Below are positions 1,433-19,944 of a DNA stretch of 64,000 bases, in pieces. The notes beneath the pieces were generated by a model. It did not search any database. It was given only the letters and a program-made list of their open reading frames with translations, and was not told the origin of the DNA. Origin of the DNA: Candidatus Pantoea bituminis. GTDB taxonomy: Bacteria > Pseudomonadota > Gammaproteobacteria > Enterobacterales > Enterobacteriaceae. Positions within the stretch are counted from its first letter, which is position 1; every line of letters begins with the position of its first letter. The stretch spans positions 1,612,001-1,676,000 of the forward strand of contig NZ_JAGTWO010000004.1 in NCBI RefSeq assembly GCF_018842675.1, given 5' to 3'. Both the position numbers and the translations under genes were made by a program.

Positions 1433-2610
1433 TTAACCCTGAACGGTGATCGACGCCGCGCTGGCCACTGCACGTGCAATCGCCTGATCGGTCGTCTCTC
1501 CGCTGGCCAACGCCACACCTAAGCGACGCTGTCCATCAATCTCTGGCTTGCCGAACAGACGAACCTGTAAACCTGCGCCCAGTGCCGCTTCGACATTCAC
1601 GAATTGAATGTTTTGACTGGTCAGTTGCGGCAGAATAACGGCCGAGGCCGAAGCGCCGTATTGACGAATACCGCCAATCGGTAAACCCAGGAAAGCGCGA
1701 ACATGCAGGGCGAACTCAGAAAGATCCTGCGAAATCAGCGTGACCATGCCGGTATCGTGCGGGCGCGGTGAAACTTCACTAAACACCACATCATCGCCAC
1801 AAACAAACAGTTCAACGCCAAAAAGGCCATATCCGCCGAGCGCTTTTACCACTTGCTCAGAGATGGCTTGCGCACGCTTCAGCGCCAGTTCGCTCATCTT
1901 TTGCGGCTGCCAGGATTCGCGATAATCCCCTCTTCCTGACGATGCCCAATGGGCGCGCAGAAATGAATGCCATCCACTGCACTGATCGTCAGCAGCGTAA
2001 TTTCAAAATCAAACTTCACTACACCTTCTACGATCACGCGACCTGCGCCGGCACGGCCGCCTTGCTGCGCGTAATCCCACGCTTTGTCCAGCTGGCTGGC
2101 TTCACGAATAAAGCTCTGACCTTTGCCGGATGAACTCATCACCGGCTTAACGATGCAGGGGAAACCGATTTCAGCCGCGGCTGCATTGAAATTGGCCTGG
2201 GTATCGGCGAAGCGGTAACTGGACGTTGGCAGTGACAACTCTTCAGCGGCAAGGCGTCTAATGCCTTCGCGATTCATGGTCAGACGTGCGGCACGCGCCG
2301 TTGGCACCACGCGCTGACCAAGCTGCTCCAGCTCAACCAACTTTTCGGTGGCGATAGCTTCGATTTCCGGCACCACAAAATCCGGTTTCTCGAGTGCAAT
2401 TAATGCGGCTAACGCGTCGCCATCCAGCATGTTGATGACGTGGCTACGATGCGCAACGTGCATCGCTGGCGCATCGGCATAACGATCGACGGCAATCACT
2501 TCCACACCCAAACGCTGACATTCCAGCGCCACTTCTTTGCCCAGTTCGCCTGAGCCCAACAGCATCACACGCGTTGCAGCAGGGCGCAGCGCAGTTCCGA
2601 GAGTCGTCAT
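1433..2610 (-). CDS. purT: Formate-dependent phosphoribosylglycinamide formyltransferase (one-base frameshift in this sequence)
   Basis: ATP-grasp enzyme that makes formyl-GAR from GAR, formate and ATP in purine synthesis, an alternative to PurN. The start at 2610 ([10 protein letters not shown]) and the stop at 1433 give exactly 392 codons plus stop once one base is restored, the E. coli length. The frame breaks at a C run at 1927-1930 (G on the sense strand): as read, the N-terminal part ends in [10 protein letters not shown], whereas one more G gives the expected [10 protein letters not shown] and joins the second frame. The C-terminal half ([26 protein letters not shown]) is intact. A PurR box lies 38 bases upstream. 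I favour a sequencing error over a pseudogene. Confidence 0.93.
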
Positions 2611-2648
2611 AAATTCACCTAAGCAGTCAAAATGCGCGCGCAGTATAA

Positions 2649-2664
2649 ACGAAAACGTTTGCGT
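2649..2664 (-). promoter_or_regulatory. PurR operator upstream of purT
   Basis: ACGAAAACGTTTGCGT differs at one position from the PurR consensus ACGCAAACGTTTGCGT. It lies 38 bases upstream of the purT start, in the region divergent from yebE. Purine repression of purT via PurR is established in E. coli. Confidence 0.75.
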
Positions 2665-2772
2665 ACTCATCCTTCTCTGTTGTCTGCACGCTTTTTCCTT
2701 ACTTTTCTCGCTCTGACGTTTCCTGACATCCTGGTTGTCAGGATGGGGAGCTAACAACACGATCAGGAGTGG

Positions 2773-3432
2773 ATGATGAATAACTGGTTGCAACAAATTC
2801 AGTCGGTATTGGCGAAGAAAAGTGGAAGCGGAAAATCGTCTGGCGGATTAAGCGACATGCTGGCCCCCGGCGCGTTGGGAGGCTTAGCGACGATGTTGAT
2901 CGCCAGCAAGTCGTCACGCAAGCTGCTCACCAAATATGGCGGAAAAGCACTGCTGCTTGGCGGTGGTGCCGCAGCGGGAGCGGTATTGTGGAATAAGTAC
3001 AAACAGCGCATACGCGAATCCCATCAGGACGAGCCTGGCTTTGGTACGGCGCAGACGCCGGTTGATCTTCGCGCTGAGCGGCTGGTTACCGCGCTGGTCT
3101 TTGCTGCGAAAAGTGACGGCCATATTGACGAGCAGGAGCGCGCAGCCATCGAACAAAATATTCACCAATCAGGTTATGGTCAGGATGCAGAGCGTTTGAT
3201 TCAGCAGGCGATGAATCGTCCGCTTGATCCTCAATGGTTGGCAGCGGAGGTGAAAAATGAAGAAGAGGCGTTGGAACTCTACTTTCTCAGCTGTGCGGCG
3301 ATCGATGTTGACCATTTTATGGAGAAAAGTTATCTCTCGGCATTGGGTGATGCACTGAAGATTCCCCAGGATGTTCGCGATGATATTCAAAAAGATATTG
3401 CTGAGGAAAAAGCCCGCTTACCAGCCAGCTAA
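2773..3432 (+). CDS. yebE: DUF533 membrane-associated protein YebE
   Basis: 219 residues, the same length as E. coli YebE; function unknown. A flexible Gly/Ser-rich N-terminal part is followed by a hydrophobic stretch (around residues 50-77, with [18 protein letters not shown]) that could cross the membrane, then a TerB-like helical domain ([18 protein letters not shown]). AGGAG stands just before two adjacent ATG codons at 2773 and 2776; either may be used. Divergent from purT. In E. coli yebE responds to envelope stress (Cpx); I see no clear CpxR box here. Confidence 0.9.
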
Positions 3433-3547
3433 TCTGCCTTTGGCGTCAAAAAATAGTCTGTCACCGCTCCGTTTACATGTCTTCGCTTGGCATCTTCGGT
3501 CAGAGATGCCACGCTTACAGATCATTACTTTCACGGAGACGGATGTC

Positions 3548-5610
3548 ATGAAAGCACCCATTGCGAAAAAATTCCTCATGAAATGTCGCTGCATGGTGAA
3601 ACGCGCGTCGATAATTATTATTGGTTGCGCGATGACAAACGTGAAAACAGCGAAGTGCTCGATTATCTGCGAGCAGAAAATAATTACGGCAAGAAAATCA
3701 TGGCTTCGCAGCAGCCGCTGCAAGATCGGATTCTTAAAGAGATCATTGGCCGCTTGCCACCGCAAGACCATTCAGTGCCTTACGTAAAAAATGGCTATCG
3801 CTACCAAAGTCGTTACGAAAGCGGCAATGAATACGCAGCCTATTATCGGCAGCCCGCCAGCAGTAATCCTGACGATGAGTGGACGCTATTACTCGACGCC
3901 AATCAGCGTGCTTCCCACAGTGATTTTTACACAATGGGCGCGTTACACATCAGCCCAGACAATAACGTCATGGCGCTGGCAGAAGATTTCCTTTCGCGGC
4001 GTCAATACGGCATTCGCTTTCGCAACCTGCAAAGCGGCAGTTGGTATCCTGAAGTGCTGACAAATGCCTCTTCCAGCTTCGCCTGGGGCAATGATTCGCG
4101 TACGGTTTATTATGTGCAAAAACATGCACAAACTTTGCTCTCGTATCAGGTGTGGCGACATGAGCTGGGTACGCCACAGGCGCATGACCAGTTAGTTTAC
4201 GAAGAGAAAGATGATACGTTTCATCTCAGCGTACATAAAACCACCTCGAAGCAATTTATTCTGATCGTGCTTTACAGCACGACAACCAGCGAAATTCAGT
4301 TAATAAATGCTAATTTCCCTGATGCTCAGCCGCAGGTGTTTTTGCCACGCCGCAAAGATCATGAGTACAGTCTTGATCACTACGATCATCAGTTCTTCAT
4401 TCGATCAAATCGAGACGGCAAAAACTTTGGTTTATACCGCACACGTTATCTGGCGGAGTCGCGCTGGGAGACCATTATTCCAGCACGCGACCATGTTGTG
4501 ATGGAAGATTTTCAGCTCTTCACCGACTGGCTGGTGGTAGAAGAGCGGCAACGCGGTTTAACCAGTTTGCGTCAGATCAACTGGGCCAGCGGTGAAACCA
4601 GCGGTATCGCCTTTGACGATCCCACTTATGTGACCTGGCTGGCGTATAATCCAACGCCGCGTACCAGTAAACTGCGTTATGGCTACTCATCCATGACCAC
4701 GCCAACCACGCTGTTTGAGCTGGATATGGATACTGGCGAGCGTCGTATTCTTAAACAAAGCGCCGTCAGCAACTTCAATGCAGACGATTATAAAAGTGAA
4801 CATCATTGGATTACTGTCAGTGATGGCACTGAAGTGCCGGTATCGCTGGTGTATAACCGTAAACACTATCAGCCCGGCCAAAATCCGATGCTGGTCTATG
4901 GCTACGGCGCTTATGGCAGCAACATGGATGCAGACTTCAGCGTCAGCCGCCTGAGCCTGCTGGATCGTGGATTTGTCTATGCGCTGGTGCAGGTGCGTGG
5001 CGGCGGTGAACTGGGGCAGCAATGGTACGACGGTGGGCGTTTACTGAATAAGATGAACAGCTTCACTGATTTCATTGATGTTACTGATGCGCTAGTCAAA
5101 CGCGGATTCGCCCATCCTGAGCGACTCTTCGCCATGGGCGGCAGCGCAGGGGGATTATTAATGGGCGCGGTAATCAACCTGGCGCCTCAGCGTTTCCATG
5201 GTGTGGTCGCGCAGGTGCCTTTTGTGGATGTAGTCACCACCATGCTTGATGAATCGATCCCGCTGACTACCGGTGAATATGATGAGTGGGGCAACCCCAA
5301 CGATGCGGAGTATTATCGCTACATTCGACAATACAGCCCGTATGATAACGTTGAGGCAAAAGCTTATCCGCATCTGCTGGTCACCACCGGCCTGCATGAT
5401 TCCCAGGTGCAATATTGGGAACCTGCAAAATGGGTCGCAAAGCTCAGAGAGCTGAAAACTGACAATAACCTGCTATTGCTCTGTACCGATATGGATTCCG
5501 GTCACGGCGGTAAATCGGGCCGTTATAAAGCTTATGAAGGCGTGGCGATGGAGCTGACCTTCATTATCGCGCTAGCGCAGGGCAGCTTGCCCGAAGCACA
5601 CGATTACTGA
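3548..5610 (+). CDS. ptrB: Protease II (oligopeptidase B) (one-base frameshift near start)
   Basis: Cytosolic serine oligopeptidase that cuts small peptides after Lys or Arg. A beta-propeller domain is followed by the alpha/beta hydrolase domain with the nucleophile in MGGSAGG (Ser533 after correction) and the catalytic His in [10 protein letters not shown]. The true start is ATG 3548 after CACGGAG; the frame breaks at an A run at 3566-3571, where a seventh A turns KKFLMKC into the expected [11 protein letters not shown]. Corrected length is 687, against 686 in E. coli. Without correction only an internal ATG at 3583 would serve. The 3' end overlaps convergent exoX by seven bases. Confidence 0.93.
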
Positions 5611-6272
5611 GCCTGACTGAGATATTTACGCAGCGCCTGCCGCAACGGTGGGCGCAAATCTTTAACGTTATCCAGCATCCATTTTAAATATCCCGGATCT
5701 TTCCTCGCTATCACTGCCACGGCTTGCCCACGATATTTGCCAAACGGCAACACATCGGCTGACTGCTCTGCAGGCTGACAGCGCTGCATCATTTGCGCCG
5801 CATCCCAGCCAGAGGCTTCCATAATGCGAATCAACAGCGCAGCAGTGACATAACAGTCATAAAGCGCACGGTGTGCATGCAACTCAGCAGGTGGCGTCAC
5901 CTCGAGTTTCAAACTGTGGCGCAGCGCCTGATTACCATATTTGATGCCAGGCCACAGCTGACGCGCCAGTGTCATCGTGCAAATCCATTCGCCATGCATT
6001 TCCGGCAACATGCGGCGATCAAAACTGGCATTGTGCGCGACGTAAAACGGACTGCCATGATAGCGATCAATCGCTTGCTCAATGGTCGGCTTTCCGATCA
6101 CCATCGCTTCGGTAATGCGATGCACAGCCATAGCCTGGCGACTAATGGGGCGATCGGGTGAGATTAAATCGCTCATTGGATTAACGATCTGCCCATCGAT
6201 CACGTCCACCGACGCAACTTCGACAACCCCGCCTTGTAAGCCACAGGTTTCGGTATCAATTACTCGCAACAT
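5604..6272 (-). CDS. exoX: Exodeoxyribonuclease X
   Basis: DnaQ-family 3'-5' exonuclease of DNA repair, active in mismatch repair and UV tolerance in E. coli. The 222 residues carry the DEDD motifs: Exo I IDTETCG at residues 5-11, then [10 protein letters not shown] and HRALYDCY. The C-terminal segment [23 protein letters not shown] is the small domain also found in other exonucleases. It lies two bases downstream of the holE stop on the same strand, so the two are very likely co-transcribed. Confidence 0.96.
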
Positions 6273-6274
6273 AA

Positions 6275-6505
6275 TTATTTCTGCTTCGGTTCGTAGGGCA
6301 GGCGAGACAGGCTCAATGAGGCTTGGCGGTAATGCATTAACCGCTGACGAAACCAGTCACGCAGCGCTTCAGGCTGTTCGTTCGCCACCATTTCGGCCAC
6401 GACTGGCATGTTATAACGCTCTTTGAACGCCACGCCGGCAGCGGCTAAATCGACGTTCACTTTGTCTTTCTCTTCCTGCGAAAGCAGGGCAAGGTTCTGA
6501 CTCAT
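6275..6505 (-). CDS. holE: DNA polymerase III theta subunit
   Basis: 76 residues, identical in length to E. coli HolE, with the family core [20 protein letters not shown] and C-terminal LSRLPYEP. Theta binds and stabilises the epsilon proofreading subunit in the core polymerase. The start at 6505 is preceded by AGGAGAACCCC; a longer in-frame ORF upstream has no such site and does not resemble the family. First gene of a holE-exoX operon, which pairs a proofreading-associated subunit with another DEDD exonuclease. Confidence 0.96.
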
Positions 6506-6656
6506 GGGGTTCTCCTGATGATGTCGGGCAAAAGTAATGTTTTCCCCGGTTTGAATCAAGGGTAAAGGATCGCACTGCTGGTCTCGACACCCTAAAAACA
6601 GCAGCGTATCCTTGCGCCACGTTTGCCGTGTCAGTTGCATTTAAAAGGATGATCTC

Positions 6657-7034
6657 ATGCAGAAAACCCGTGTTTCGCGAGTAGTAATCTCACTGATTGC
6701 TACCAGCGCGCTAGCCTTTAGCCAGTTTGCGTCCGCACATGCACATCTTCAGTCATCCGTGCCCGCAGCCAAAGCCGACGTGACGCACTCAACGAAATCG
6801 CTGGCACTGACCTTTACGGAAGATGTCGAAGCCGCATTTAGCGGCGTTGAGATCGTCGATGCGCAACAGAAACCTGTCGCCAGCGAGAAGGCGAAGCGCG
6901 ATGCTAAGCAGCACGATCGTCTGGTTGTTGAACTCGCTCAGCCGCTTCCGGCAGGCCATTATCAGGTGAACTGGCATGTGTTGTCGGTTGATGGTCATAA
7001 AACCAAAGGCAGCTACCGCTTTAACGTGAACTGA
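6657..7034 (+). CDS. yobA: Periplasmic copper-resistance protein CopC/YobA
   Basis: CopC-family periplasmic copper-binding protein of 125 residues. A signal peptide runs to about residue 27 (ASA cleavage), so the mature protein begins His-Ala-His, the amino-terminal copper ligand arrangement of CopC. The remainder is the single beta-sandwich domain with the typical ending NWHVLSVDGHKTKGSYRF. It is followed three bases later by copD and then yebY, the same order as in E. coli; the set probably moves or buffers copper in the envelope. Confidence 0.93.
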   Translation: MQKTRVSRVVISLIATSALAFSQFASAHAHLQSSVPAAKADVTHSTKSLALTFTEDVEAAFSGVEIVDAQQKPVASEKAKRDAKQHDRLVVELAQPLPAGHYQVNWHVLSVDGHKTKGSYRFNVN

Positions 7035-7037
7035 TCG

Positions 7038-7913
7038 GTGACAACGTTGTGGGTTTTGCTGCGCATGTTGCATTTTATCGCCGTGATGGTACTGACGGGT
7101 AGCGCATTTTACACAGTCTTGCTGGCACCTGCGCGCTATCGCCATGCGCTGGCGGGACATTTGCATCGCGTGTTGCAGTGTAGCGTCTGGCTGGCTTTAA
7201 CAAGTGCGCTGGCGATGCTGGCAGCACAAAACGTGTTGATGAGCGGCGACTGGCATAATCTCAGCGACGTCGATATTTGGTTAGCCGTGTTCGATACGCG
7301 GTTTGGGGCGGTATGGCAATGGGAAATCCTGTTCGGGCTGGGCGGATGTTTCACGCTACTGCTGCGTGGCCGCGTTCGTCAGCAAGCTTTGCTGTTGTTC
7401 GGCATTTTACAGTTGTTATGCCTGGCGTTGGTTGGTCACGCCGCCATGCACGATGGTATTGCAGGCATGTTGCAGCAGATAAATCACGCGCTACATTTGA
7501 TAGCTTCAAGTTTTTGGGCTGGTGGATTGCTTCCACTGTTACTGCTAATGCGAGAAGCACGTCGAATTGATTATCGAACTGATGCCATCCGTACCATGAT
7601 GCGATTTTCTCGTTATGGTCATCTCGCGGTCGCATTGGCATTGATAACGGGACTGATTAACAGCCTGGTGATTGCTGGCTGGCCGCTGATCTGGCGCGAT
7701 AATATCTACGTCACGCTGTTGCTGTGCAAGGTGGCATTGGTGACAATAATGGTGCTGGTGGCCTTAATAAACCGTTACTGGCTGGTGCCACGTTTTCGCC
7801 TGGCGGGCAGCGGAACGCAGCAAAAATTTATTCGCATGACGCAGCTCGAATTGCTGTTGGCATGCGGGGTGGTTGGACTGGTTAGCGTATTTGCTACGCT
7901 TTCACCAGCCTGA
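7038..7913 (+). CDS. yebZ: Copper-resistance membrane protein CopD/YebZ
   Basis: Inner-membrane CopD-family protein of 291 residues with about eight hydrophobic segments, including LLRMLHFIAVMVLTGSAFY at the N-terminus and conserved His and Met residues in the helices. It is thought to take copper handed over by CopC. GTG start at 7038, three bases after the yobA stop, indicating translational coupling. Confidence 0.92.
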   Translation: MTTLWVLLRMLHFIAVMVLTGSAFYTVLLAPARYRHALAGHLHRVLQCSVWLALTSALAMLAAQNVLMSGDWHNLSDVDIWLAVFDTRFGAVWQWEILFGLGGCFTLLLRGRVRQQALLLFGILQLLCLALVGHAAMHDGIAGMLQQINHALHLIASSFWAGGLLPLLLLMREARRIDYRTDAIRTMMRFSRYGHLAVALALITGLINSLVIAGWPLIWRDNIYVTLLLCKVALVTIMVLVALINRYWLVPRFRLAGSGTQQKFIRMTQLELLLACGVVGLVSVFATLSPA

Positions 7914-7949
7914 ATGTGAACAAAACGAATGTGTACAAGGTAGGCTATT

Positions 7950-8294
7950 TTGTTGAAGAAAGTGATTCCCGCAATCCTGTTGTTCTCTGTCTGCGGCCAG
8001 GCGCTGGCGGCTCAAATCATTACCGTTAGCCGCTTTGAGATCGGCAAAGATAAGTGGCCCTTTAACCGCGAAGAAGTGATGTTGACCTGTGAGAAAGATG
8101 GCTCGCTTTTCGCCATTAACCCCAGCACTCTGATGCAGTATCCGCTTAACGATCTTGCTGATGCACAATTCAAAGCGGGGCAGGTGAAAGCCCAACCCAT
8201 CAGCGTGATTCAAACCGAAGATAAAGCCAATCCAGGCAACATGATGAGCTTGCAGCCTATTGTTGATCGCGCTCAGGCGCTGTGCGGTAAGTAA
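7950..8294 (+). CDS. yebY: DUF2511 protein YebY
   Basis: Secreted protein of 114 residues with a signal peptide ending near ALAAQ and two Cys in the mature part (LTCEKDG and the C-terminal LCGK). Homologue of E. coli YebY, the third gene of the yobA-yebZ-yebY copper operon. The start appears to be TTG at 7950: the only upstream in-frame ATG (7929) runs into a stop at once. Role unproven, probably periplasmic copper handling. Confidence 0.88.
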
Positions 8295-8301
8295 ATTCTC
8301 A

Positions 8302-8328
8302 GGGTGCAGCGTTGCGTTGCACCCGTTT
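8302..8328 (+). terminator. Possible terminator after yebY
   Basis: Inverted repeat GGGTGCA / TGCACCC with a nine-base loop followed only by GTTT. It lies just past the yebY stop and before the SdsR promoter. The weak T tract makes this uncertain. Confidence 0.4.
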
Positions 8329-8414
8329 CATGCACTTTTCTGCCGTCCGGATCACAAACTGATCCGCTTTCTGCCCCTCACAGCCCGGTCGGCTGGAAAA
8401 TCTACCACTCTGTT

Positions 8415-8424
8415 CTAATCTTAA
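8415..8424 (+). promoter_or_regulatory. Sigma-S-type -10 element of SdsR
   Basis: CTAATCTTAA matches the extended sigma-S -10 pattern CTAnnnTTAA and ends a few bases before the predicted first base of SdsR at 8428. SdsR is a strongly sigma-S-dependent RNA in E. coli and Salmonella. Confidence 0.65.
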
Positions 8425-8427
8425 GAT

Positions 8428-8527
8428 GCAAGGCGAAACCGCCTTCATTAATGCCAACTTTTAGCGCACGGCTCCTTGAGAGCCATTTCCCTGGACCGAA
8501 TATAGGAATCGTATTCGGTCTTTTTTT
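8428..8527 (+). ncRNA. sdsR: Small regulatory RNA SdsR (RyeB)
   Basis: About 100 bases. It keeps the nearly invariant parts of SdsR as I recall them: 5' GCAAGGCG, the single-stranded ATTAATGCCAACTTTTAGCG, a short hairpin around GGCTC/GAGCC, CATTTCCCTGGACCG, and the terminator hairpin GACCGAATA / TATTCGGTC followed by T7. It sits beside yebY as in E. coli. SdsR is an Hfq-binding, stationary-phase RNA that represses mRNAs including mutS and tolC in E. coli and ompD in Salmonella. An antisense partner (SraC/RyeA) would run on the opposite strand; I cannot confirm it. Confidence 0.9.
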
Positions 8528-8788
8528 GCCTGTATGATTTAGAACAATAGAAAATGAAATGCCCGAATATTTTTTATTTGGTTTAAACCATTACGTATTC
8601 ATTCAAAAGAGCTGAGGCGTAGCACTCCACGCCATTCACAGAAAATGAATGATTTGTGTTGCAGCGCTTTGGTCTGTTCAACATGCGTAACCAGAGCGAG
8701 TTTGACAACGCGATGGTTGCTAGTGCTTTGTCAGCGATGAGCTGAGCAGGCTCGCCGTCGTTGTACAGGCGCTCTTATGAGCTGAACT
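8528..8788. other. Non-coding spacer after SdsR
   Basis: No convincing gene. In E. coli the SraC/RyeA antisense RNA covers the corresponding area, and its promoter could lie here on the minus strand. Short reading frames have no ribosome-binding site and no family resemblance. Confidence 0.5.
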
Positions 8789-8811
8789 AAAAAAACCGCC
8801 TCAGTGGGCGG
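8789..8811 (-). terminator. Terminator of the 76-residue protein gene
   Basis: On the minus strand CCGCC-CACTGA-GGCGG followed by seven T. It lies 22 bases past the stop of the minus-strand gene at 8833. Confidence 0.75.
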
Positions 8812-8832
8812 CGGCTGTGTCGAGTGAAATAA

Positions 8833-9063
8833 TTAACTTAACATCGTCGGCTGCCAGTGATTTATAGCAGCTATGACTTCACTCTCATTTAATGGCGCAT
8901 TATGGGCGATAAGATATTGTGCTGGGCCATAGGAGAATACCGTTAATTCATAAGTCTCATTATCGAGCGTAATAGTGTCAGGAAAATCAGGAACACCTTC
9001 ATACTTTTGGAGGGTGACTAAAGGTTCTGGTTTACCTTTAAATATCAACATGTCAGGTTTCAT
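8833..9063 (-). CDS. Uncharacterised 76-residue protein
   Basis: Not recognised. The reading frame has an excellent AAGGAG site before ATG 9063 and a terminator downstream, so it is very probably a real single-gene unit. The product is acidic to neutral and soluble looking, with no signal peptide and no membrane segment. It carries a beta-rich middle (TITLDNETYELTVFSYGPAQYLIAH) and a helical end (LNESEVIAAINHW), resembling a small stand-alone alpha/beta fold. It is the first gene of an accessory block not found here in E. coli. Confidence 0.7.
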   Translation of the reverse strand: MKPDMLIFKGKPEPLVTLQKYEGVPDFPDTITLDNETYELTVFSYGPAQYLIAHNAPLNESEVIAAINHWQPTMLS

Positions 9064-9346
9064 TTGGCTTGCTCCTTGTTATGCAGCGTGCCTAACTACT
9101 TATTATAGAATTACATTGAGATATTGCGCGCTGTGATAATTAACCGGCAATAAACGTTATCGCTATGACAAGATCATTACGTATTTTGTTCTGCTGTTTA
9201 CATAATCCCGCACATATCACTGAATCATTTGCCGTCCAGGGACTTTATTGACGACCAAAACTTACCTAAGGGGCATGTTCTGTGCCTGTGTTTTTCTTTG
9301 CCACTTGGCCGGGAAGAAGGCGGCATCTGAAGCGCCGCCACTATCC

Positions 9347-10111
9347 TTAAGCCTGCTTTGGCTGACCATTTGATGCCGTAATGCCGCCATCAACCGGGAG
9401 ATTCACGCCGGTGATGTAGCGCGCATCATCGCTGGCGATAAATGCAATAGCGCTGGCAATATCTTCTGGCTCGCCCGCGCGTCTTAATGGAATACGATCA
9501 TAAAATTTGTTCAGTAATTCCTGATCGTCTTTCATATCTTCGGTTAAATCAGTCAACGTAAATCCGGGGCAAATAGCGTTTACGCGTACATTGTCTGCGC
9601 CGTAATCCATTGCCAGCGACCGGGTAAAGTTGGTTACTGCGCCTTTCGCCGCATTATAGACACTCATTCCCCAGTCACCGCCTAATCCTGAAACAGAGGA
9701 GATATTGACGATATTGCCTTTGGTCTTTAATAACGCCGGGACAAAATAGTGCACACAGTGGAATACGCCATCCAGATCGACTTTCATCAATTTTTTCCAG
9801 TCGTCGAGTTCAATTTCATGGATGCGACCTTGCACCACCACGCCGGCGTTGTTAACTAAAACATCAACGCGACCATATTTATCCTGTACGCTTTCCGCCA
9901 GGCTTTTTACCTGTTCAGCCTCAGAAACATCACAAGGCACCACAAGGTGATCTCCCTTGCTTAACGATGCCAGTGTGGTTTCAAGTTTATTCTCAGTGCG
10001 ACCGACTAAAACGACAGAAGCCCCTTCGTCAGCAAAACGTTTAGCGGCGGCTTCACCGATGCCGGAACCTGCGCCAGTGACCACAACGACTTTTCCTGTA
10101 AATCTGGACAT
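9347..10111 (-). CDS. Short-chain dehydrogenase/reductase (SDR family)
   Basis: Classical SDR of 254 residues. It has the nucleotide-binding TGAGSGIGEA at residues 12-21, NNAG near 88, catalytic Ser in NISSVSG, and YNAAK with the catalytic Tyr and Lys near 152-156. The C-terminus (YITGVNLPVDGG) is typical of FabG-like enzymes. Arg in VGRTENK just after the second beta strand suggests NADP(H). The substrate cannot be deduced. AGGAGGC precedes the ATG. It stands alone between two unrelated small genes and is not part of the E. coli order, so probably an acquired or lineage-specific gene. Confidence 0.88.
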   Translation of the reverse strand: MSRFTGKVVVVTGAGSGIGEAAAKRFADEGASVVLVGRTENKLETTLASLSKGDHLVVPCDVSEAEQVKSLAESVQDKYGRVDVLVNNAGVVVQGRIHEIELDDWKKLMKVDLDGVFHCVHYFVPALLKTKGNIVNISSVSGLGGDWGMSVYNAAKGAVTNFTRSLAMDYGADNVRVNAICPGFTLTDLTEDMKDDQELLNKFYDRIPLRRAGEPEDIASAIAFIASDDARYITGVNLPVDGGITASNGQPKQA

Positions 10112-10396
10112 GTTGCCTCCTTACTGATGGCGTTACTTTTGGCGTTAAACATACGAGGATCAAGCCTGGCATTCATGCCGTGGAGTTCAAGCGAAGCAGA
10201 AAATGTAGCCGTAACATTTTGTGTTTGAATACTCAGCCTGTTCGCTATAAAGCTGATGAGCTGCAGAAATAGGCTTTTTATAACAGCGCTAAACGTCAGC
10301 GATTGAATCCACCACAGAGAAAATAAATTCCATTAATGATCAATCGACTACCTCAAAATCTTAGCGTCTCGCTTGATCATATCAATCGATTGCGAT
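10112..10396. other. Spacer between the SDR gene and the SOS pair
   Basis: No gene seen. It holds the divergent promoters. Near the right end, GATCAATCGA (about 10338) and ATCAATCGATTG (about 10381) repeat ATCAATCGA, the second containing the palindrome CAATCGATTG, just before the LexA box. Confidence 0.4.
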
Positions 10397-10416
10397 TACT
10401 GTGTTTATATACAGCT
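10397..10416 (+). promoter_or_regulatory. LexA (SOS) box
   Basis: The core CTGTGTTTATATACAG fits the LexA consensus CTG-N10-CAG with the usual AT-rich alternating centre, and is preceded by TA as in strong boxes. It lies about 20 bases before the start of the 80-residue protein gene, in the promoter, so the pair downstream should be damage-inducible. Confidence 0.85.
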
Positions 10417-10434
10417 AAATTGTGAGGGATAATG

Positions 10435-10674
10435 ATGAGCAGAAGAGACGACATTGAGTCAGCGTTTCGGGCAGCCATTGAGATAGATGCGCGTGGACGA
10501 CAGATTGTGACAACTGATGAGTTTTGCCGACAGCTTGCAAAGCGCAACCATAGCTGGAGCCACGGTGAGTGCAACAAATGGATTGAGTATTATCAAAGTG
10601 GTTTTAAAGATCTCACGCCTTATGAAAACGTCCACCGTATATTTGCGCTGCGTAATATGGCTTACGTGAGGTGA
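10435..10674 (+). CDS. SOS-controlled small protein upstream of a UmuD'-like gene
   Basis: About 79 residues; family not named with certainty. The protein is charged and helical (RRDDIESAFRAAIEIDARGRQ, TTDEFCRQLAKRNHSWSHGE), with the look of a small winged-helix or helical adaptor, and ends FALRNMAYVR. ATG 10435 is preferred to 10432 because GAGGG lies six bases before it. It is the first gene of a two-gene operon behind a LexA box; the next start follows its stop by three bases. From memory, similar short proteins recur beside UmuD-like genes in related bacteria; this was not checked. Confidence 0.8.
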   Translation: MSRRDDIESAFRAAIEIDARGRQIVTTDEFCRQLAKRNHSWSHGECNKWIEYYQSGFKDLTPYENVHRIFALRNMAYVR

Positions 10675-10677
10675 TCG

Positions 10678-10998
10678 ATGGCATTCGAATCACCGGCACA
10701 GGATTATATCGAGAGTCGCCTTAATCTTAATGCTTTGTTTATTCCGCATCCTGAAAATACCTTCAGAGTCGATACCTGTAATGGTTTTGTGTTGATAGAT
10801 CGTGCCGCGGCTCTCCGCGCAGGTGACATGATCGCTTTCCAATATGATGGTCATTCGATGCTGGGAAAAATAGATCACGACAGGATCACGCCTGTTGAAG
10901 GCGAAGCCATCCAGGGCGAGGCGCTTGAAGCTGTAATTGTTCTGGGAAAAATGTGTTGCGAAGTGCTGAAGGTGTTTGAGCCAGATGTGCCGATTTAG
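10678..10998 (+). CDS. UmuD'-like protein lacking the protease dyad
   Basis: 106 residues resembling the LexA/UmuD S24 domain. SPAQDYIESRLNLNALFIPHP lines up with SPAADYVEQRIDLNQLLIQHP of UmuD, and AGDMIAF with the DGDLLIV strand. It begins just after where UmuD is cut (Cys24-Gly25), so it is like ready-made UmuD'. The GDSM motif with the catalytic Ser is replaced by CNGFV, and no counterpart of the catalytic Lys is seen, so self-cleavage is unlikely. No umuC follows. It is translated three bases after its upstream partner and sits under the same LexA box. It may bind a polymerase or compete with UmuD; this is inference. Confidence 0.78.
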   Translation: MAFESPAQDYIESRLNLNALFIPHPENTFRVDTCNGFVLIDRAAALRAGDMIAFQYDGHSMLGKIDHDRITPVEGEAIQGEALEAVIVLGKMCCEVLKVFEPDVPI

Positions 10999-11115
10999 CG
11001 GTAAATAAAGTCATCAGCATCATGTCCTACGGATGCGCATTCATGTCCATAAATGGTCTCGACATGGCTGTGACAGATTGAGATGCTCTGTTGAAAATAA
11101 ACAGGGGAATTTTAC

Positions 11116-11328
11116 ATGCTTGAACTGCGACCTAACTGCGAACATTGTGATATCGACTTACCAGCCGAATCGCGTGAAGCGCTGATCTGCTCGTTTGAAT
11201 GCACTTTCTGCACGACCTGCGCTGAGCAACACTTGCAGCATATCTGTCCGAACTGTGGCGGCGAACTGGTGCGGCGCCCGATCCGACCCGCTGAAAAGTT
11301 AATAAAATATCCTGCAAAAACGCGGTAA
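11116..11328 (+). CDS. DUF1272 zinc-binding protein
   Basis: 70 residues with four CxxC or CxC-type pairs: NCEHC (8-11), SFECTFCTTC (about 29-35) and ICPNC (about 46-49), typical of DUF1272 proteins, which begin MLELRPNCE and contain CPNCGGELVRRP. A small metal-binding protein of unknown role, probably zinc. ATG 11116 follows AGGGGAA. Single gene in the accessory block. Confidence 0.88.
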   Translation: MLELRPNCEHCDIDLPAESREALICSFECTFCTTCAEQHLQHICPNCGGELVRRPIRPAEKLIKYPAKTR

Positions 11329-11548
11329 TGAAAACAGGCTGATTTAGAAAGATGTGAGTGATAGTTAATATCATTCAACCTGTTTGGCCGGTATTGTTTG
11401 GCAGGTATTGTGCCGATAAAATTCTGTTGTCCCTAAAAGCCGAACACCTTTGATGAGTGCCGGAGATAAGCGCCGGAAGGGGCATCACACAAAAGCTGCT
11501 GTCTCGAGTGATGATCTCTATTTGGCAAAGCGCTTAACCGAAATGCGC

Positions 11549-12282
11549 TTAACGCGGTTTATGTGCAGCCAGCAGAAACAGCATGGGACGCTCTCGCTCT
11601 TCAGCTAAAGCAGGATTAATCGCAATCTGCTCATCAGTCGGGCCCCATTCATTAAGATGATCAATGATGAAACCGTGGGCAATCAACGCGTTGATCCAGC
11701 TTGAAAGCTTACGATGCTGCTTTTTCACCCCTTCAGCAAACCAATGACTAAAACGTTCACCTTCTTGCTGATAATGGTTCACAGGCCAGGATTTTGCTTG
11801 CTGCGCATCCTGTATCCAGCCTTGCTGATGAGGCGCTGTATAAATGGGATGTTCGCAGGAAAACAGCAGTTTTCCACCCGGTTTCAAGGCTGTAAAAAGC
11901 ATGGAAAACAGCCCATCAATATTTTCCAGATAATGCAGCGCCAGTGAACTGTAAGCCAGATCGTAATGTGCAGCGGGAAGTTGCAATGTTTCCAAATCGA
12001 CACGCTGATAAACGATGCGTTCGGCATCGCCCAATGAGTGAGCCTTCTCCAACATTTTTTCTGAAACATCCAATCCCAACACGCACGCTGCGCCTTGTTC
12101 AATCGCATAACGGCAAAACCAGCCGTAGCCGCAACCCAAATCAACCACCTTTTTATCGTGTAGCGTTGGAAGCAGTGCACGCAACGCGGGCCATTCTGGT
12201 GCGCCATCCAAACCCTTTACTGATCGATCCAGCGTGGCGTAACCGGAAAAAACTGTGGATCGTCATAAATATTTTGGCTCAT
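11549..12282 (-). CDS. Class I SAM-dependent methyltransferase (one-base frameshift near start)
   Basis: Small-molecule type methyltransferase. Motif I is VDLGCGYGWFCRYA, followed by LGLDVSEKML and the post-motif LKPGGKLLFSCEHP. The start is ATG 12282 (MSQNIYDDPQFF) after AGGAGTGTT. The frame breaks at an A run at 12247-12252 (T on the sense strand); one more T gives FFSGYATLDRS and joins the main frame at GLDGAPEW, total 244 residues. The N-terminal part is characteristic of this family, so the frameshift is probably a sequence error. Substrate unknown. Confidence 0.85.
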
Positions 12283-12416
12283 TGAACACTCCTTTTTTGC
12301 AGAACAAAGAAGTGTAGGGCGATCAACGCTGGGTTAACAGGGCTGACATTGAGCGCGATCGCAGCGTCTATAATTTTAATTATCTGCATTTCACGTTTTC
12401 AGCCCAGGGTTAAACG

Positions 12417-13064
12417 ATGAATTATCAATATCTGAACGGTGAGAACTGGCAAAAGATTTGGATCGTGGGTGACTTGCACGGATGCCGTAGCCAACTCGAT
12501 ACCTTATTACAGGCACATGACTTCGATAAGCAGCAAGATTTGTTGATTTCTGTGGGTGATTTGATTGATCGCGGCCCTGACAGCTTAGGCTGCTTAGCGC
12601 TACTTGAAGAGCCGTGGTTCCGTTGTGTGCGGGGAAATCATGAAGAAATGGCGCTTAATGCGTTACAGGGTCACGAATCGCAGTTGTGGGAGATGAATGG
12701 CGGCGGATGGTTTTGGCAGTTAAAAGGCGCAGAAGTGATTACTGCGCGACATGCCCTTAATCGATTAAAAGAGATACCGCTGATACTGCATCTGCAGCTT
12801 GAAGAGCAGATTGTGGTGATTGCGCATGCCGATTATCCAGCGGAACATTATGCCTGGGAGCAGGCGGTAAACTGGCATGACGTGGTGTGGAGCCGCAGGC
12901 GTATTGACGGGTTGCAGCAGGGAAGGCGCGACACAATACCGGGTGCAGATGCCTTTTACTTTGGACATACACCGCTCCAGCACCGGCTCGACGTAGATAA
13001 TCTTCACTACATCGACACTGGCGCGGTGTTTGGTAACCATCTTACGTTGGTACAGGTGCAGTAA
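12417..13064 (+). CDS. pphA: Serine/threonine protein phosphatase PphA
   Basis: PPP-family metallophosphatase of 215 residues. All signature motifs are present: GDLHGC (18-23), GDLIDRGPDS, RGNHEEM, a HADYP segment, and GHTP with the final IDTGAVFG. It uses two metal ions, commonly Mn. In E. coli PphA responds to misfolded protein and acts on phosphoprotein signalling. Convergent with rsmF, the stops being three bases apart. Confidence 0.93.
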   Translation: MNYQYLNGENWQKIWIVGDLHGCRSQLDTLLQAHDFDKQQDLLISVGDLIDRGPDSLGCLALLEEPWFRCVRGNHEEMALNALQGHESQLWEMNGGGWFWQLKGAEVITARHALNRLKEIPLILHLQLEEQIVVIAHADYPAEHYAWEQAVNWHDVVWSRRRIDGLQQGRRDTIPGADAFYFGHTPLQHRLDVDNLHYIDTGAVFGNHLTLVQVQ

Positions 13065-13067
13065 TAA

Positions 13068-14501
13068 TCAGCGGAACAGCCGTCCATCACGTACCAATTC
13101 TCGTGGGTAACTATTTTTGATGCGGCTACCCACTTTCTTGGCTAAACCCAGTGGTTGCTGCTGATAGGTGACAATCATTTCATCTCGCGTGGGCGCGACT
13201 TCAGGATAGACATCGCGACCGTGATACCACTCTTCCGCTTCGGCTGCGCTGAGCTCGAAAGTCTGATTTTCGTCTGGCTGCGCCAGCGCAATCACAGCTT
13301 CATGTTGCCAGCGATACCCTTTGGCGAATGTCTCAGCCAGCTTCAGACCAATGCGTGAAAAGCGTACTTTGCCAAGCATGGGCGTAACGTGAGTGGGGAA
13401 AAGCCAGATTTCTTTGTCGCGTTGCCAAAGCGTCAGCGATGCGTCCCACGTCAAAGAGACCGCTGCGGCAGCCTGAACGATCTCGCTTTCCAGCTTACGG
13501 CTGACATGTGAAAAAGGCAGTTTACCGACTTTATAGGTTGGTTCAGGCATCGGCTCAACAGAAGCCAGCTTGCGCAGACGCGCCACAAAAAAGCCTTCGC
13601 TGTCGAATAAGTGTGGGAAGACGTGCAGATAGCCTTCTACCGTCGCGGCCTGAGCTGCGCCCGCGAAAAGATCGTTAAGTGGCGTGATTTCAACGGCATC
13701 AGGATAGCGTTCCAGCAGCCAGGCAATGACCTGCTGATTTTCAATCTGATTTAGCGTACAGGTGGAGTAGACCAACGTGCCACCCGGCTTTAAGGCATGG
13801 AAAGCGCTATCGATCAAATCGCGTTGCGTTGCAGCAATCTCAGCGGTGCTCTCTAACGACCAGTTCTTCATTGCATCGGCATCTTTACGAATGACGCCTT
13901 CACCCGAACAGGGCGCATCAAGCAAAATAGCATCGAACATTTCAGGCAACGCAGGTCCGAAAACGCGGGCATCGAAATGCGTCAATGCTGTATTACTCAC
14001 GCCACAACGGCTGATATTAGCGTGCAAGACTTTTACACGACTGGATGAGAATTCATTAGCGAGGATCACGCCGTGATTATTCATTCGCGCTGCGATTTGA
14101 GTTGTTTTTGATCCCGGGGCAGCGGCCATGTCCATGACTGTTTCCGCATTGCTGACGGCATCAAACAGCGCTGTCACGGGCAACATCGAGCTGGCTTCCT
14201 GAATGTAGAACAGGCCACTCAGATGTTCTGCCACGCTGCCTAAGGGCAAACTTTCATCTTCTCGCGTAATCCAGAATCCTTCATCGCACCAGGGAACCGG
14301 CGTTAATTGCCAGTCATAATGGGCGGTTTGGGCCAAGAAATCAGCGACGCTGATCTTCAACGTATTAATGCGAATGCTGCGACGAAGCGGTTGCTGACAA
14401 ATGGCAACAAATGCCTCGAACGCGGCTTCGTCCGGCAGGTTTTGGCGCATTAAGGTGAGAAAATCGGCGGGTAAAAGCGAAGAAGAGTCCGACACAGGCA
14501 A
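13068..14501 (-). CDS. rsmF: 16S rRNA (cytosine(1407)-C5)-methyltransferase RsmF
   Basis: Methylates C1407 of 16S rRNA in the 30S subunit. About 477 residues (E. coli 479), with the Nop2/Sun domain: [10 protein letters not shown] binds [13 protein letters not shown] holds the first catalytic Cys and VYSTCTLN the second; a PUA-like C-terminal region ends [14 protein letters not shown]. There is no ATG at the start; TTG 14501 or GTG 14495 must be used, and the choice is open. It lies downstream of letB (yebT) on the same strand but behind a terminator-like hairpin. Confidence 0.94.
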
Positions 14502-14544
14502 TATCCAATAGAAGCAAAGGCGGGAAGTGTATCACGCAGAAATG

Positions 14545-14570
14545 AAACGGGCAGCCAGGCTGCCCGTTTT
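14545..14570 (-). terminator. Terminator-like hairpin after yebT
   Basis: On the minus strand ACGGGCAGCC-TGG-type stem-loop (ACGGGCAGCCTGGCTGCCCGT) followed by TTCATTT. It sits directly after the yebT stop. The T tract is imperfect, so read-through into rsmF is possible. Confidence 0.65.
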
Positions 14571-14572
14571 GC

Positions 14573-17218
14573 TTACGGTTGATTGGGATCCGGTATCGCT
14601 GTGCCCCAGTTGCGCCACGCTTTCGGCGCTTCATCCTGCAACAGGAAGTGTTTATTCGCCGTGGCCTGCGGAGCCAGCGGCACCGTTGGCGGCGTGGCAA
14701 ACTGAATGCCGCCGCGAATAAACTGCTGGAACGTCCCCGTTTTCACCACGCCACCGACCAGGCCGAAGTCGAGGTTATAGCCGGAAGCCAGCCAAAACAC
14801 GGAGTTGTTGCGCACCAGATGTTGATATTTCTTGCTGATGCGCAGAGCGATTTGTACGCGATCGGCCATGTTGCCCAGCGATGTACCGGTCACGGTACCC
14901 ACTTCTACGCCACGGAACAGCACGGGAGTCCCCAGCGACAACGAGCCCGCTTCAGACGCATCGACATAGATATTCAGACCGTTGAGGTAACGCGAATCGG
15001 TGATGGTGCTTTCCTGCAGCTCGAAAATACGTGCGGCATTGCCTTTGCCGGGATCAACGTTAACGTAGGGCTGCAACAAGGTTTCCAGATGATTCACGCC
15101 GGTAGCGGAGATCTCTGGAGATACCACCGAGAAGCGGCTACCGTTGCGCGCAAAATCCTGAACGTATTCAGGATAGAGCACCGCTTTTGCAACAACCTGA
15201 TTGTTGTCTTTACTCAGCGACAGCGATTCAACCTGTCCTACATTAATGCCAAGATAACGAATAGGCATGCCAGCAGACAATTTGCTGCCATCATAGGTGT
15301 GCAGGGTAATTTGGCTACCCACCGCACGCGCCGCCGTTTCGGAAGGATAAAGCACGCGTTTAGCGCCTTTATTTGAAACTGCACCACTCATATTATCGAA
15401 ACTGATCGCACCTTTAAGGGCACGATTAAGTGGCGATGCCTGCACGGTCAACCCGCTGCCGTTGAGCTGGACGCGCGCGCCTCCTTCAGCCCAAAATACG
15501 CTTTCATTGGTCAGCAGCTTGCGATATTCAGGCTGGATGTGTACCGCGATTTCAAAAGCATTTGCCCGCGGTGTCACTTTAGTTATTTCACCCACCTGAT
15601 ATTTACGGTAAAGCACCACAGAACCTGCCTGAACGTCCGGCAAGCTGTTCGCCGTTAGCATTAATGTGGTAGACGGGCCATCGCCTGTAATGCCTTCGGC
15701 TGCTTTATCTGCATCAGCAAATAGCGGGTAGGTTGCTTTCACATTACCTTGCTTGCCTGGGTCTAAACGGATGCCACCGTCAACCCACTCACGGGCGCTG
15801 GCACCGATCACTTGCATACCGTCCAAACCAAATTTCACATCAAGACGACTGTTAACGATAAATTTACTGTCGCCATGTACCAACTGGCGATATTCAGGAT
15901 TAACGGCAACCACAAAATTAACGCCATTCTCATCCAGACTTCGCGACATCACTTGCCCAATCTGCATGCCGTGCAGCATCAACGGTTGACCGGCGTCGAC
16001 ACCGTAACTTTCTGGTGCGCTTAATTTAACGGTAAGCACGTTCGGTTTTTGCAACAGCGATTCGTTTGCTGGCAGCACGGCAAAATGCTGTTGTGGTTGG
16101 CCTTTACCGGGAATCAGTTCAAACGTATTGCCGGTTAACAAGCTGCTAAGGCTGGTGTCGGTCAGACTAATTTTGGGACTGCGCATTTCAATACGCGTTT
16201 CGCTACGCATCAGGCCGACTACCGAAGGATCAATCGTTAATTCGCCGGTGACTTTACCGCCATCTTTCAGATTCAGCTTGGTGAGCGTGCCTACTTCAAG
16301 TCCTTGGTACATCAGCGGCGTGCTGCCCGCTTTTAGATTGTTGCCATTTGGCAGATCTAACGAGACGGAAACGCCACGCTGGCTTTGCGCTAAATCGGGA
16401 TAGAGCTGATAGTTTTGATCGGCTTTGGCGGTTTCAGCACCGTCGGGTGAATCAAACGCAATAGCGCCATTAACCAGCGCTGCCAGGCTCTCAAGCTTCA
16501 CTTTCGCGCCACTTAAACTGATATCAGCATTGACGCCAGAGACATTCCAGAAACGGCTGGTGGTTTTCACCAAATTATTGAAACGACGATCAATCAGGAC
16601 ATCAATGCTGACGCCATCGGTATCATTATTGATGCTGTAGTCGTAGACCCGTCCTACAGGAATTTTGCGGTAGTAGACCAGCGATCCTGTACTCAGCGCG
16701 CCTAAATCCGGTGCATGCAAATGGATCAATAACTCGCCAGTATTAACCCGGTATTTAGGCTGAGTGTCCAGTGCAGTGAAATTTTCGCTGGCTTTGCCTT
16801 TGCCTGGCATCATGCCTATGTAGTTCCCCCCAACCAGCGCATCTAATCCAGACACCCCCGCCAGCGAAGCTTTCGGCGTGACCAACCAAAATTGCGTATC
16901 TTCACGCAGTGCATCGCGCATATCGCTTTTGATGCTGGCCTTGATCTGAATACTGCGATAGTCATCACTCAGATTGATGCCCTGCACGGTGCCCACTTCA
17001 ACGCCTTGATAACGTATTGGCGTGCGTCCCGGCACGATGCCATCCGCCGTCTGGAAGTTAATTGTGATAGTGGTGCCGCGCTCTTGATAATTTGTCCACA
17101 GCAGCCAGCCCGCAATCAACATTGCGATAATCGGCAGCAACCAAAAAGGCGAAATTTTACGCTTGTTGCGCAGCGTGGCGTTAGTCGGTGTAGTCGGCGT
17201 TTCCTGTTGCATGTGCAT
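14573..17218 (-). CDS. yebT: MCE-domain lipid-transport tunnel protein LetB (YebT)
   Basis: Inner-membrane anchored periplasmic protein of 881 residues (E. coli 877). One membrane helix ([17 protein letters not shown], about 25-42) precedes a chain of MCE domains, seven in the E. coli protein, which stack into a tunnel spanning the periplasm for phospholipid exchange. The repeats show as recurring [18 protein letters not shown] segments (residues about 65, 290, 420, 650 and 765). ATG 17218 or 17212 could be the start; both overlap the end of yebS by more than 30 bases, showing tight coupling with its partner LetA. Confidence 0.96.
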
Positions 17219-18424
17219 CCCAGAGCAGGCGGCTGTCTAGCCACTCAACAGACATAATGGTCAGGATCACGGCGGCGCCAAAATATAAAGCGGCCGGTCC
17301 CATGGTAAAAGCCAGCAGTTGATCGCGATTGACCAACGACATGGTTAATGAAATGACAAAGAGATCCAGCATTGACCAGCGTCCAACCCAAGTCACTACA
17401 CGCAGCAAGCGAACGCGCGTTTTCAGGCCTTGTTCACACCGGAAATGAATGCTGAGTAGCAGCGTTAACATCACCAATACTTTGGTAAAAGGCACCAAAA
17501 TACTGGCAATGAAAACGATGGCGGCGACCGGAATATTGCCGGAGCCTAATGATAAAATACCGGAGAAAATGGTGTCTTCACGCCGCGAACCGTTGAGATA
17601 GACCACTGAAATGGGCAGTAAATTGGCGGGAATGAGCAGCACAATGGATGAAATCAGCGCAGCCCAGGATTTTTGCAGGCTGTGACGGCGGCGAAAATCC
17701 AGCGGGGTATGACAGCGTGGACAGCGTCCGCGTGCATCGGGGACACCGGTATTGTGGCAATTCAGGCAAACCTGAAGTTTATCACGCGCGGCGTTGCCTG
17801 GTTTCTGCGGATAAAAGTGGTCCCATAATTGCTCAATATTAAGGTGAATCAGCGTTATTAAGCTTAAAAGCGTCAACGCAATATAGGCCGCTAAGCCATA
17901 GCCCAACTCCAGCGTCGCATAATCCTGAACTTTGATAGAGGCAACGGCAATGCCAATCAAATAGATATCCAGCATTACCCACTCTTTGAGCTTTTCAAGC
18001 ATCAATAAAACGGGGCGCAGATTCATGCCAAGTTTGTGACCGATACCGAGATAGCAAATACCCGCAACGAGCGTGACAGGCGCGCCAATAGTACAGAACG
18101 CCACCATAGAAGCCGTTAACACATCACCTTGTTGCGTCATCTGCACCACGCCTTCCAGCAGGTTGGCATTGATGCGCATGCCGAGCAGGCGAATATCAAC
18201 CAGCGGCAGGCTAAAAGCGAAAGGCATCAGCACAATCATGGTGGCAGCCATCGCCATTAATCGGGTTATGGACCAGTCGTGCCCGCTCATAATTTGCGCA
18301 TTGCAGCGAGGGCAATATGCAGACTGGTGCGATTTCACATCCGGTAAGGAAAAAGGGTATCGCATTGCGGGCAACGCTGATAACGTGCGTGAGGCAATGT
18401 CTGGCTGATAGCGTGAATTTTCAT
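17181..18424 (-). CDS. yebS: LetA (YebS) inner-membrane partner of LetB (one-base frameshift near start)
   Basis: PqiA-family membrane protein. Two cytoplasmic zinc-ribbon pairs (CPQCDTLF plus YCPRC; later CLNCHNT plus CPRC) alternate with eight or so membrane helices. The start is ATG 18424 ([10 protein letters not shown]). The frame breaks at an A run at 18350-18354 (T on the sense strand): as read the protein stops after LFPYRM, and with one more T it continues [18 protein letters not shown], giving 414 residues. Functions with LetB in lipid transport. Likely a sequence error. Confidence 0.93.
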
Positions 18425-18635
18425 AGGGTGATGCAAGTTTCGCTCATCGTGTGTGACACAAATCGGTCGTTAAGACGTTGCCGGTGTGCTGGTTTCGGGC
18501 ATCACGCTTCGATCCACAGAATGCTAAGGTTATAGCAACTAACGCTATGATTCACCTTGTCGCTCTGGATATTTAGTGCTTATTTTTAACGAGCGAACCT
18601 AAACTCGCTCAGTTGTCATTGGTAATGGTTAAATA

Positions 18636-19136
18636 ATGAACAAAACTGCCTTTTACGCCGATTTGAATCGCGATATGCGCGCCTTGCTGGCCGGAGAAAC
18701 GGCCTTTCTTGCCGCGATGGGTAATTTTAGCGCGCTGTTGTATGAACGTCTCGATGGCGTGAACTGGGCAGGTTTCTACCTGCTAACGGAAGCTGACACC
18801 TTAGTGTTGGGGCCGTTTCAGGGCAAGATTGCCTGTGTACGAATCCCTGTAGGCAAAGGGGTTTGTGGAACTGCACTGGCTGAAGACAAAGTGCAACGCG
18901 TTGATGATGTGCATGCATTCCCAGGTCATATCGCCTGTGATGCTGCAAGCAACGCGGAAATTGTGATTCCTCTGAAAGTGAATGGCACTCTGGTTGGTGT
19001 CCTTGATATCGACAGTGTTGAATACAATCGCTTTGATAGCGATGACGAAGCGGGGTTAGTCACCCTTACTGATGGGCTTTGCGAAGTGCTTGCGGGCAGC
19101 GACTTAGAAAAATATCTGCAGCTGACGCGCAGCTAA
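18636..19136 (+). CDS. msrC: Free methionine-(R)-sulfoxide reductase
   Basis: GAF-domain enzyme of 166 residues reducing free Met-R-sulfoxide. The three conserved catalytic Cys of the family are present at 67, 77 and 101 in KIACVRIPVGKGVCGTA and HIACDAAS. The tryptophan-containing GVNWAGFYL and DIDS segments complete the active site. It stands divergent from yebS and upstream of proQ, the order of E. coli (yebR). Confidence 0.95.
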   Translation: MNKTAFYADLNRDMRALLAGETAFLAAMGNFSALLYERLDGVNWAGFYLLTEADTLVLGPFQGKIACVRIPVGKGVCGTALAEDKVQRVDDVHAFPGHIACDAASNAEIVIPLKVNGTLVGVLDIDSVEYNRFDSDDEAGLVTLTDGLCEVLAGSDLEKYLQLTRS

Positions 19137-19232
19137 TCGACTGGATCACATGGCATTTAGCGATGTTGTCATTATAATGTCGCCTGTTCATGCCTGCTCT
19201 GGTCGGCAAACCCGTTGTAATCAGGAAATTTC

Positions 19233-19925
19233 ATGGAAAATCAACCTAAGTTGAATAGCAGTAAAGAAGTCATTAGCTTTCTGGCGGAGCGCTTTCCGCA
19301 CTGCTTTAGCGCTGAAGGCGAAGCGCGTCCGCTCAAAATCGGCATCTTTCAGGATCTGGTAGAGCGTGTTCAGGGCGAAATGGGTCTGAGCAAAACTCAG
19401 TTACGCTCTGCGCTGCGTCTTTATACCTCTAGCTGGCGTTATCTGTACGGCATTAAAGCCGGTGCAACGCGTGTTGACCTCGACGGTAACGCCTGTGGCG
19501 TATTGGACGAGCAGCATGTAGAGCATGCGCGTAAGCAGCTGGAAGACGCCAAAGCGCGTGTTCAGGCGCAGCGTGAGCAGCAGCGTGCCGCCCGCCGTGA
19601 AGCGGGTGAAGGTGAAGAGGGCGCAGCAACACGTCGTCCCCGCAAACCTGCACCTCGCAAGCCCGCTGAAGGCGATGCTGCGCGTAAACCGCGTCCGCAA
19701 GCTGAGCGTGCGACAGCTTCACAGAATCGCAAACCGGCGCCACGCCCGGAGCAGCTTAAACCCATCACTGACACCTCAACTTTACAACCCGGCCAGAGTA
19801 TTAAAGTTAAAGCAGGCAAAAGTGCAATGGACGCTACCGTTCTGGAAGTATCGAAAGACGGCGTTCGGGTACAGCTCGCTTCCGGCATGGCAATGATTGT
19901 GCGCGCAGAACACTTACAGTTCTGA
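19233..19925 (+). CDS. proQ: RNA chaperone ProQ
   Basis: Global RNA-binding protein of 230 residues (E. coli 232). The N-terminal FinO-like domain (about 5-120) is followed by a basic, Ala/Pro/Arg/Lys-rich linker (about 120-180) and a C-terminal SH3-like (Tudor) domain with the ending [21 protein letters not shown]. Binds structured sRNAs and mRNA 3' ends. It lies 20 bases ahead of prc and probably shares its transcript. Confidence 0.97.
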
Positions 19926-19944
19926 AACGGAGGCTGACCCCGGC

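Follow-up and report, generated by a model that had tools for sequence, protein, structure and literature searches.

A putative SOS-controlled gene pair of Candidatus Pantoea bituminis appears to be an orphan copy of a widespread phage cassette with a UmuD'-like second gene

What could a gene pair under apparent control of the SOS (DNA damage) response do, if one of its products resembles UmuD' and no polymerase gene follows? This question is raised by a stretch of 64,000 nucleotides from Candidatus Pantoea bituminis (contig NZ_JAGTWO010000004.1, positions 1,612,001 to 1,676,000, forward strand), referred to here as the window. An initial annotation had described in it a LexA box directly before two tightly coupled genes, here named A and B, encoding a protein of 80 amino acids and a UmuD'-like protein, and had presented them as the best candidate there for an undescribed small system. 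The arrangement was confirmed; as to its nature, sequence comparisons indicate that the pair has instead strayed from a cassette that is widespread in phages, and that B is of the same HumD/UmuD' kind as the gene of phage P1.

The LexA box (CTGTGTTTATATACAG) occupies positions 10399..10414 on the plus strand, 17 base pairs (bp) upstream of gene A (10432..10674, plus strand; 80 amino acids, or 79 from a second ATG at 10435, where the alignment with its homologues starts). Gene B (10678..10998, plus strand; 106 amino acids) follows after 3 bp, and the sequence GAGGTGA ahead of it overlaps the stop codon of A. As previously stated, none of the open reading frames (ORFs) downstream of B in the window encodes UmuC or another polymerase, which rules out that the pair is part of an umuDC operon.

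The box is the sole CTGTN8ACAG in the window, a count that is not significant by itself (one observed versus 0.52 expected, with at least one in 41 of 100 shuffled sequences). It is taken as real because of its position and its conservation across relatives. In a first set of 41 distinct A proteins, the one from the window counted in and one row without start codon left out, CTGN10CAG was present within 70 bp upstream in 40 cases. The set was enlarged to 150 distinct proteins, 149 of them with 75 bp of upstream and 142 with 330 bp of downstream sequence; the palindrome was found within 75 bp upstream in 141 of the 149, versus 3.8% of 20,000 random 75-bp pieces drawn from the same loci. A chance box is thus ruled out, though the window-wide count would be compatible with it, and LexA control of the A-B pair, as claimed at the outset, has as much support as sequence data can give.

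The origin of the pair was apparent from its relatives. In PHROGs, A corresponds to phrog_3893 (expect value, E, 1.2e-26; function unknown there) and B to phrog_3469 (E 4.6e-16), which carries the label 'UmuD-like'. A tblastn search over 50,697 phage records located A in 47 and B in 60, all below 60% identity. Scans of viral contigs returned 291 A relatives from 347 pattern hits and at least 461 B relatives from at least 600, the best 80 of each being the viral loci studied here. When named genomes were scanned, A turned up at 33 loci, all Enterobacterales by record titles, and among 295 genomes of the host's taxonomic family 38 matched A (E 1e-4) and 40 matched B (E 1e-6, UmuD proper counted in). 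Among the annotated phages examined, the pair lies between the tail genes and the integrase gene or attP in AH07, Midgardsormr38, mEp390, Flotzy and HK140; in phiES15 it comes after the tail fibre gene, at the end of the record, and in LAU1 also after the tail fibre gene, with host-named genes beyond. The dinI gene adjoins the cassette in divergent orientation in mEp390, HK225, Flotzy and HK140. With a small reference set, tblastn gave a tail or integrase match in 68 of the 160 viral loci, and many chromosomal loci had none; when the ORFs of nine loci were read by eye (seven of these without any reference match except DinI), tail-type or other phage genes were seen just upstream in most, which is a matter of judgement only. 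Acyltransferase-type genes also adjoin some copies (L096:6339-7451, L107:8247-9275, L112:8396-9520, L113:10522-11541), the one in AH07 being annotated as such and the others judged by eye. The window copy has the same organization, with a phrog_3893 gene directly before a UmuD'-like gene and a LexA-type palindrome upstream. The pair had also been said to be absent from E. coli, which held for the host, since blastn of positions 10300-11100 against 20,395 E. coli records gave no match, but not for its phages, of which at least mEp390, Flotzy and HK140 carry it.

The initial annotation had also suggested searching for conserved co-occurrence of both genes, and this was indeed found. A B-type gene starts between -1 and +3 bp past the end of A in 37 of the 41 members of the first set, and B lies next to A in 125 of the 142 relatives with enough downstream sequence. 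The remaining 17 A loci are diverse: five (L020, L248, L292, L325, L329) hold B sequence that is in a different frame or scores below threshold, in L062 (G260) a single open frame runs through A and a long-form B, probably via a frameshift in the last part of A, and in two Pantoea loci (L311, L320) A has its own palindrome, with a full umuD downstream behind a separate palindrome and a UmuC match after it. No B was recognised at HK225, L058, L063, L215, L331 and four copies in L326. This last locus, from Erwinia phyllosphaerae, contains its four A-like copies within 16 kb, three of them behind LexA-type palindromes. In the viral scans B was present at 65 of 65 A loci with room for it, and A at 44 of 78 loci with a short B; a palindrome was found at most 120 bp before B in 33 of the other 34. 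A is read as a partner of B because B can stand alone under LexA and A is nearly always with B; from these sequences it looks like one, with L326 and HK225 speaking against a strict rule. Distances among A proteins correlate with those among B proteins (r 0.22 for 83 pairs and 0.39 for 66 short pairs, values not reached in any of 2000 permutations), shared ancestry being uncorrected in this comparison.

Regarding the second gene, UmuD' of the PDB was matched by profile and also by predicted-structure comparison, in agreement with the likeness first proposed. The first residue of B corresponds to the one just past the UmuD cleavage bond, and the N-terminal arm with that bond is missing. In the columns of the catalytic serine and lysine, which we take to be Ser60 and Lys97 of UmuD, the window protein has a gap and a glycine, and either residue was present in none of 56 short relatives. 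Long forms of B occur in A-B cassettes as well; one is 71% identical to P1 HumD, and two scored 217 and 149 bits with the HumD model NF051876 (cut-off 120 bits), where two short relatives gave 31 and 40. By this comparison the long form is HumD. With the UmuD model of NCBIfam, B of the window reached 30 bits (cut-off 110). The box, the pairing, the homology, the loss of catalytic residues and the phage home of the family can all be read from these sequence data.

Gene A offers fewer clues. Its predicted model (predicted local distance difference test 83, predicted template modelling score 0.71) points to a winged-helix-like fold, and the structure matches were generic winged-helix proteins, with no named relative beyond them; a sequence-profile search of the PDB gave no convincing match (best E 0.06), and Pfam had no family for A or B at E 1. 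In an alignment of 74 rows of A relatives, 15 members matched phrog_2341, a family with no matches in 321 genomes of the class, in a search where the E. coli control alone was positive and which therefore provided no genomic context. Kinship to Tum was rejected (A profile versus Tum of phage 186, probability 0.1%), as was kinship to DinI (no match), and so was a role of A-B as a defence pair, PADLOC having no match for either gene at E 1. No description of gene A, the A-B cassette or the serine-less short B was found in the open-access papers searched, subscription papers being mostly outside that scope.

The surroundings of the cassette were compared with those in congeners. The best-matching one (G314) has the same surrounding gene order, with the dehydrogenase and DUF1272 genes adjacent and no A-B pair between them. 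Because intergenic homology to it stops at 10225 and resumes at 11034, the insert is estimated to extend approximately over 10226..11033, around 808 bp where G314 has 186 unrelated bases. A query covering 9347-12211 was matched by 58 of 61 genomes of the genus, and among the matches listed the window genome alone spans the pair at this place. The copy sits between dehydrogenase and DUF1272 genes and not between tail fibre genes and attP or int. Its neighbours are host-type; some also appear in PHROGs, where none of them is listed as a protein of the virion or of integration, and window positions 2001-20000 gave no match to any of a set of 21 tail, integrase, DinI and UmuC proteins taken from phage loci as references. 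The only repeat found flanking the insert was a single pair of 12-base copies, not a useful one, the first copy being within gene A. When DNA around the cassette was compared with the phage loci retrieved, 10121-10398 matched congener DNA only and 10999-11115 matched nothing.

Other copies exist in the genus. G314 itself carries a full A-B pair, preceded by CTGTATATATATACAG, on another contig (L347; G314:C10:177500-183000) and a broken copy elsewhere (L348); A and B without a CTGTN8ACAG core in the piece examined were found in G341 (L350), and a partial A behind a palindrome of this type in G317 (L351). B-profile matches in G319 (L349) and G297 (L352) lie in longer frames and were taken as UmuD proper. 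Given these copies in G314, G341 and G317, the cassette is, as judged from sequence, frequent in the genus, and the window site is one of several landing places. In a tree of 116 B proteins, built on few columns and with many forks unresolved, the window protein belongs to a set of five, supported at 100/93, whose other members come from Ca. Pantoea haifensis, Pantoea brenneri, a plasmid-borne copy of P. agglomerans and phage AH07, all accompanied by A. The presence of A on this tree needs around 10 changes, at least four of them forced.

The genome of the window carries UmuD and UmuC genes elsewhere and three further B-like pieces, all incomplete and one with an internal stop. One of these is a truncated B-like ORF that comes after a umuD, itself behind a LexA-type palindrome, and a umuC seen as two overlapping ORFs, with tail-fibre-like genes nearby (L100:8439-10415; G000:C4, ~1384438-1386414). 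The other two are broken (L101:9933-10188 and L102:9632-9851, G000:C4), one with an internal TGA. One broken piece precedes a LysR-type gene, which in Pantoea sp. BAV 3049 is likewise found next to the cassette. A full-length UmuD gene was located on another contig (L103:8891-9310; G000:C5), with no umuC among the adjacent listed ORFs and UmuC matches ~8 kb away on the same contig. The incomplete B-like pieces fit a picture in which lost prophages leave the ends of cassettes in the genome; the window copy may be one of these ends in a better state.

As to function, our preferred reading, held tentatively and at a little less than even confidence, is that this orphan copy of a phage SOS cassette encodes in B a ready-made UmuD' mimic acting via host UmuD/UmuC, with A acting on or with B. 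LexA would repress the pair, and DNA damage would free both genes. B would be produced directly in the form that RecA-driven cleavage gives to UmuD and, having no protease residues, would be a mimic that needs no activation; it would probably join the host UmuD/UmuC machinery and shift translesion synthesis, as reported for P1 HumD, and A, a small winged-helix-like protein, probably acts on or together with it. We infer both the action via UmuC and the role of A. The case for HumD as the model is that the cassette can carry either form of B and that an activity has been assigned to HumD, which according to the P1 record complements UmuD'. Like B, HumD of P1, gp26 of N15 and gp23 of phiKO2 (NF051876) are phage-borne UmuD' homologues with a processed-type N-terminus, a palindrome just upstream and no adjacent umuC, whereas P1, N15, phiKO2 and HK639 have no A. 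With UmuD/UmuD' of DNA polymerase V, B shares fold and sequence kinship but not the cleavable arm, the Ser-Lys dyad or a umuC partner gene. A further parallel, by description only, is found in Acinetobacter, where the UmuD homologue UmuDAb and its small partner DdrR work together in the damage response; UmuDAb acts as a repressor itself and is reported to require its N-terminal domain for this (PMC4807011), and B has no such domain.

Several observations weigh against this reading. With the HumD model the window protein reached 22 bits, which is far short of the cut-off, and ~11 residues of the UmuD' core, the catalytic serine among them, have been lost from the short clade, so that a HumD-like role is not assured for short B. 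The window protein also differs at nine of the 24 columns in which at least 85% of relatives agree, and A occurs without B at HK225, where a DNA invertase gene follows, at a Siccibacter locus and in the four L326 copies. A protease-dead B could alternatively pair, with or without A, with the like-folded C-terminal domain of a phage CI or of LexA, and act on resident prophages as an antirepressor or co-regulator under LexA control. The shared fold agrees with this, as do the LexA-controlled antirepressors GfoA and GftA of the Gifsy phages, next to dinI, and Tum of phage 186, small phage proteins under LexA outside the repressor gene and often near dinI (186 record and PMC3121763); GfoA and GftA are likened by description only. 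However, A has no kinship to Tum, and in mEp390, AH07, HK225 and Flotzy the S24 domain of the repressor retains serine and lysine. These four repressors look cleavable, therefore their phages would need no antirepressor of their own, binding being still conceivable, and we consider this explanation possible though rather unlikely. Less probable still is that uncleavable B damps the SOS response as a decoy, binding the RecA filament at the site of UmuD, LexA and CI and slowing their cleavage, by analogy with the tuning of RecA by DinI-type proteins, given that the arm carrying the cleavage bond is absent from the N-terminus of B.

It could also be that the window copy was left behind by a prophage since lost, and is now decaying and without function. 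The cassette is often the last element before attP or int, so prophage loss could leave it behind; the three incomplete B-like pieces in the same genome, the long end branch of the window protein (0.71 versus 0.26 for its sister) and its departures from conserved columns point in the same direction. Against this, neither frame is interrupted, the box and the ribosome-binding sites are present, A keeps 15 of its 16 conserved columns, and the flanks show no attachment-like repeats or other phage genes; we regard the absence of function as unlikely. Since decay of this copy would be compatible with any function of the family, the confidences of these readings overlap. A further and doubtful possibility is that the short clade has left polymerase V. 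Its protease-dead UmuD' fold would then make up, with the small winged-helix partner, an SOS effector of temperate phages that consists of two proteins. Such an effector would grip either the RecA filament or the fold of LexA, CI and UmuD, would couple the host damage response to prophage induction, and would be a kind of regulator not yet described.

Up to now, HumD-like genes of phages were known singly and annotated one by one as 'UmuD-like'. What this analysis adds is that in many enterobacterial prophages two genes recur together as an SOS cassette, the first of them unstudied and the second having lost its protease site throughout a clade. This makes it possible to test whether prophages may reset the mutation rate of their host, or each other's induction, via ready-made UmuD' mimics.
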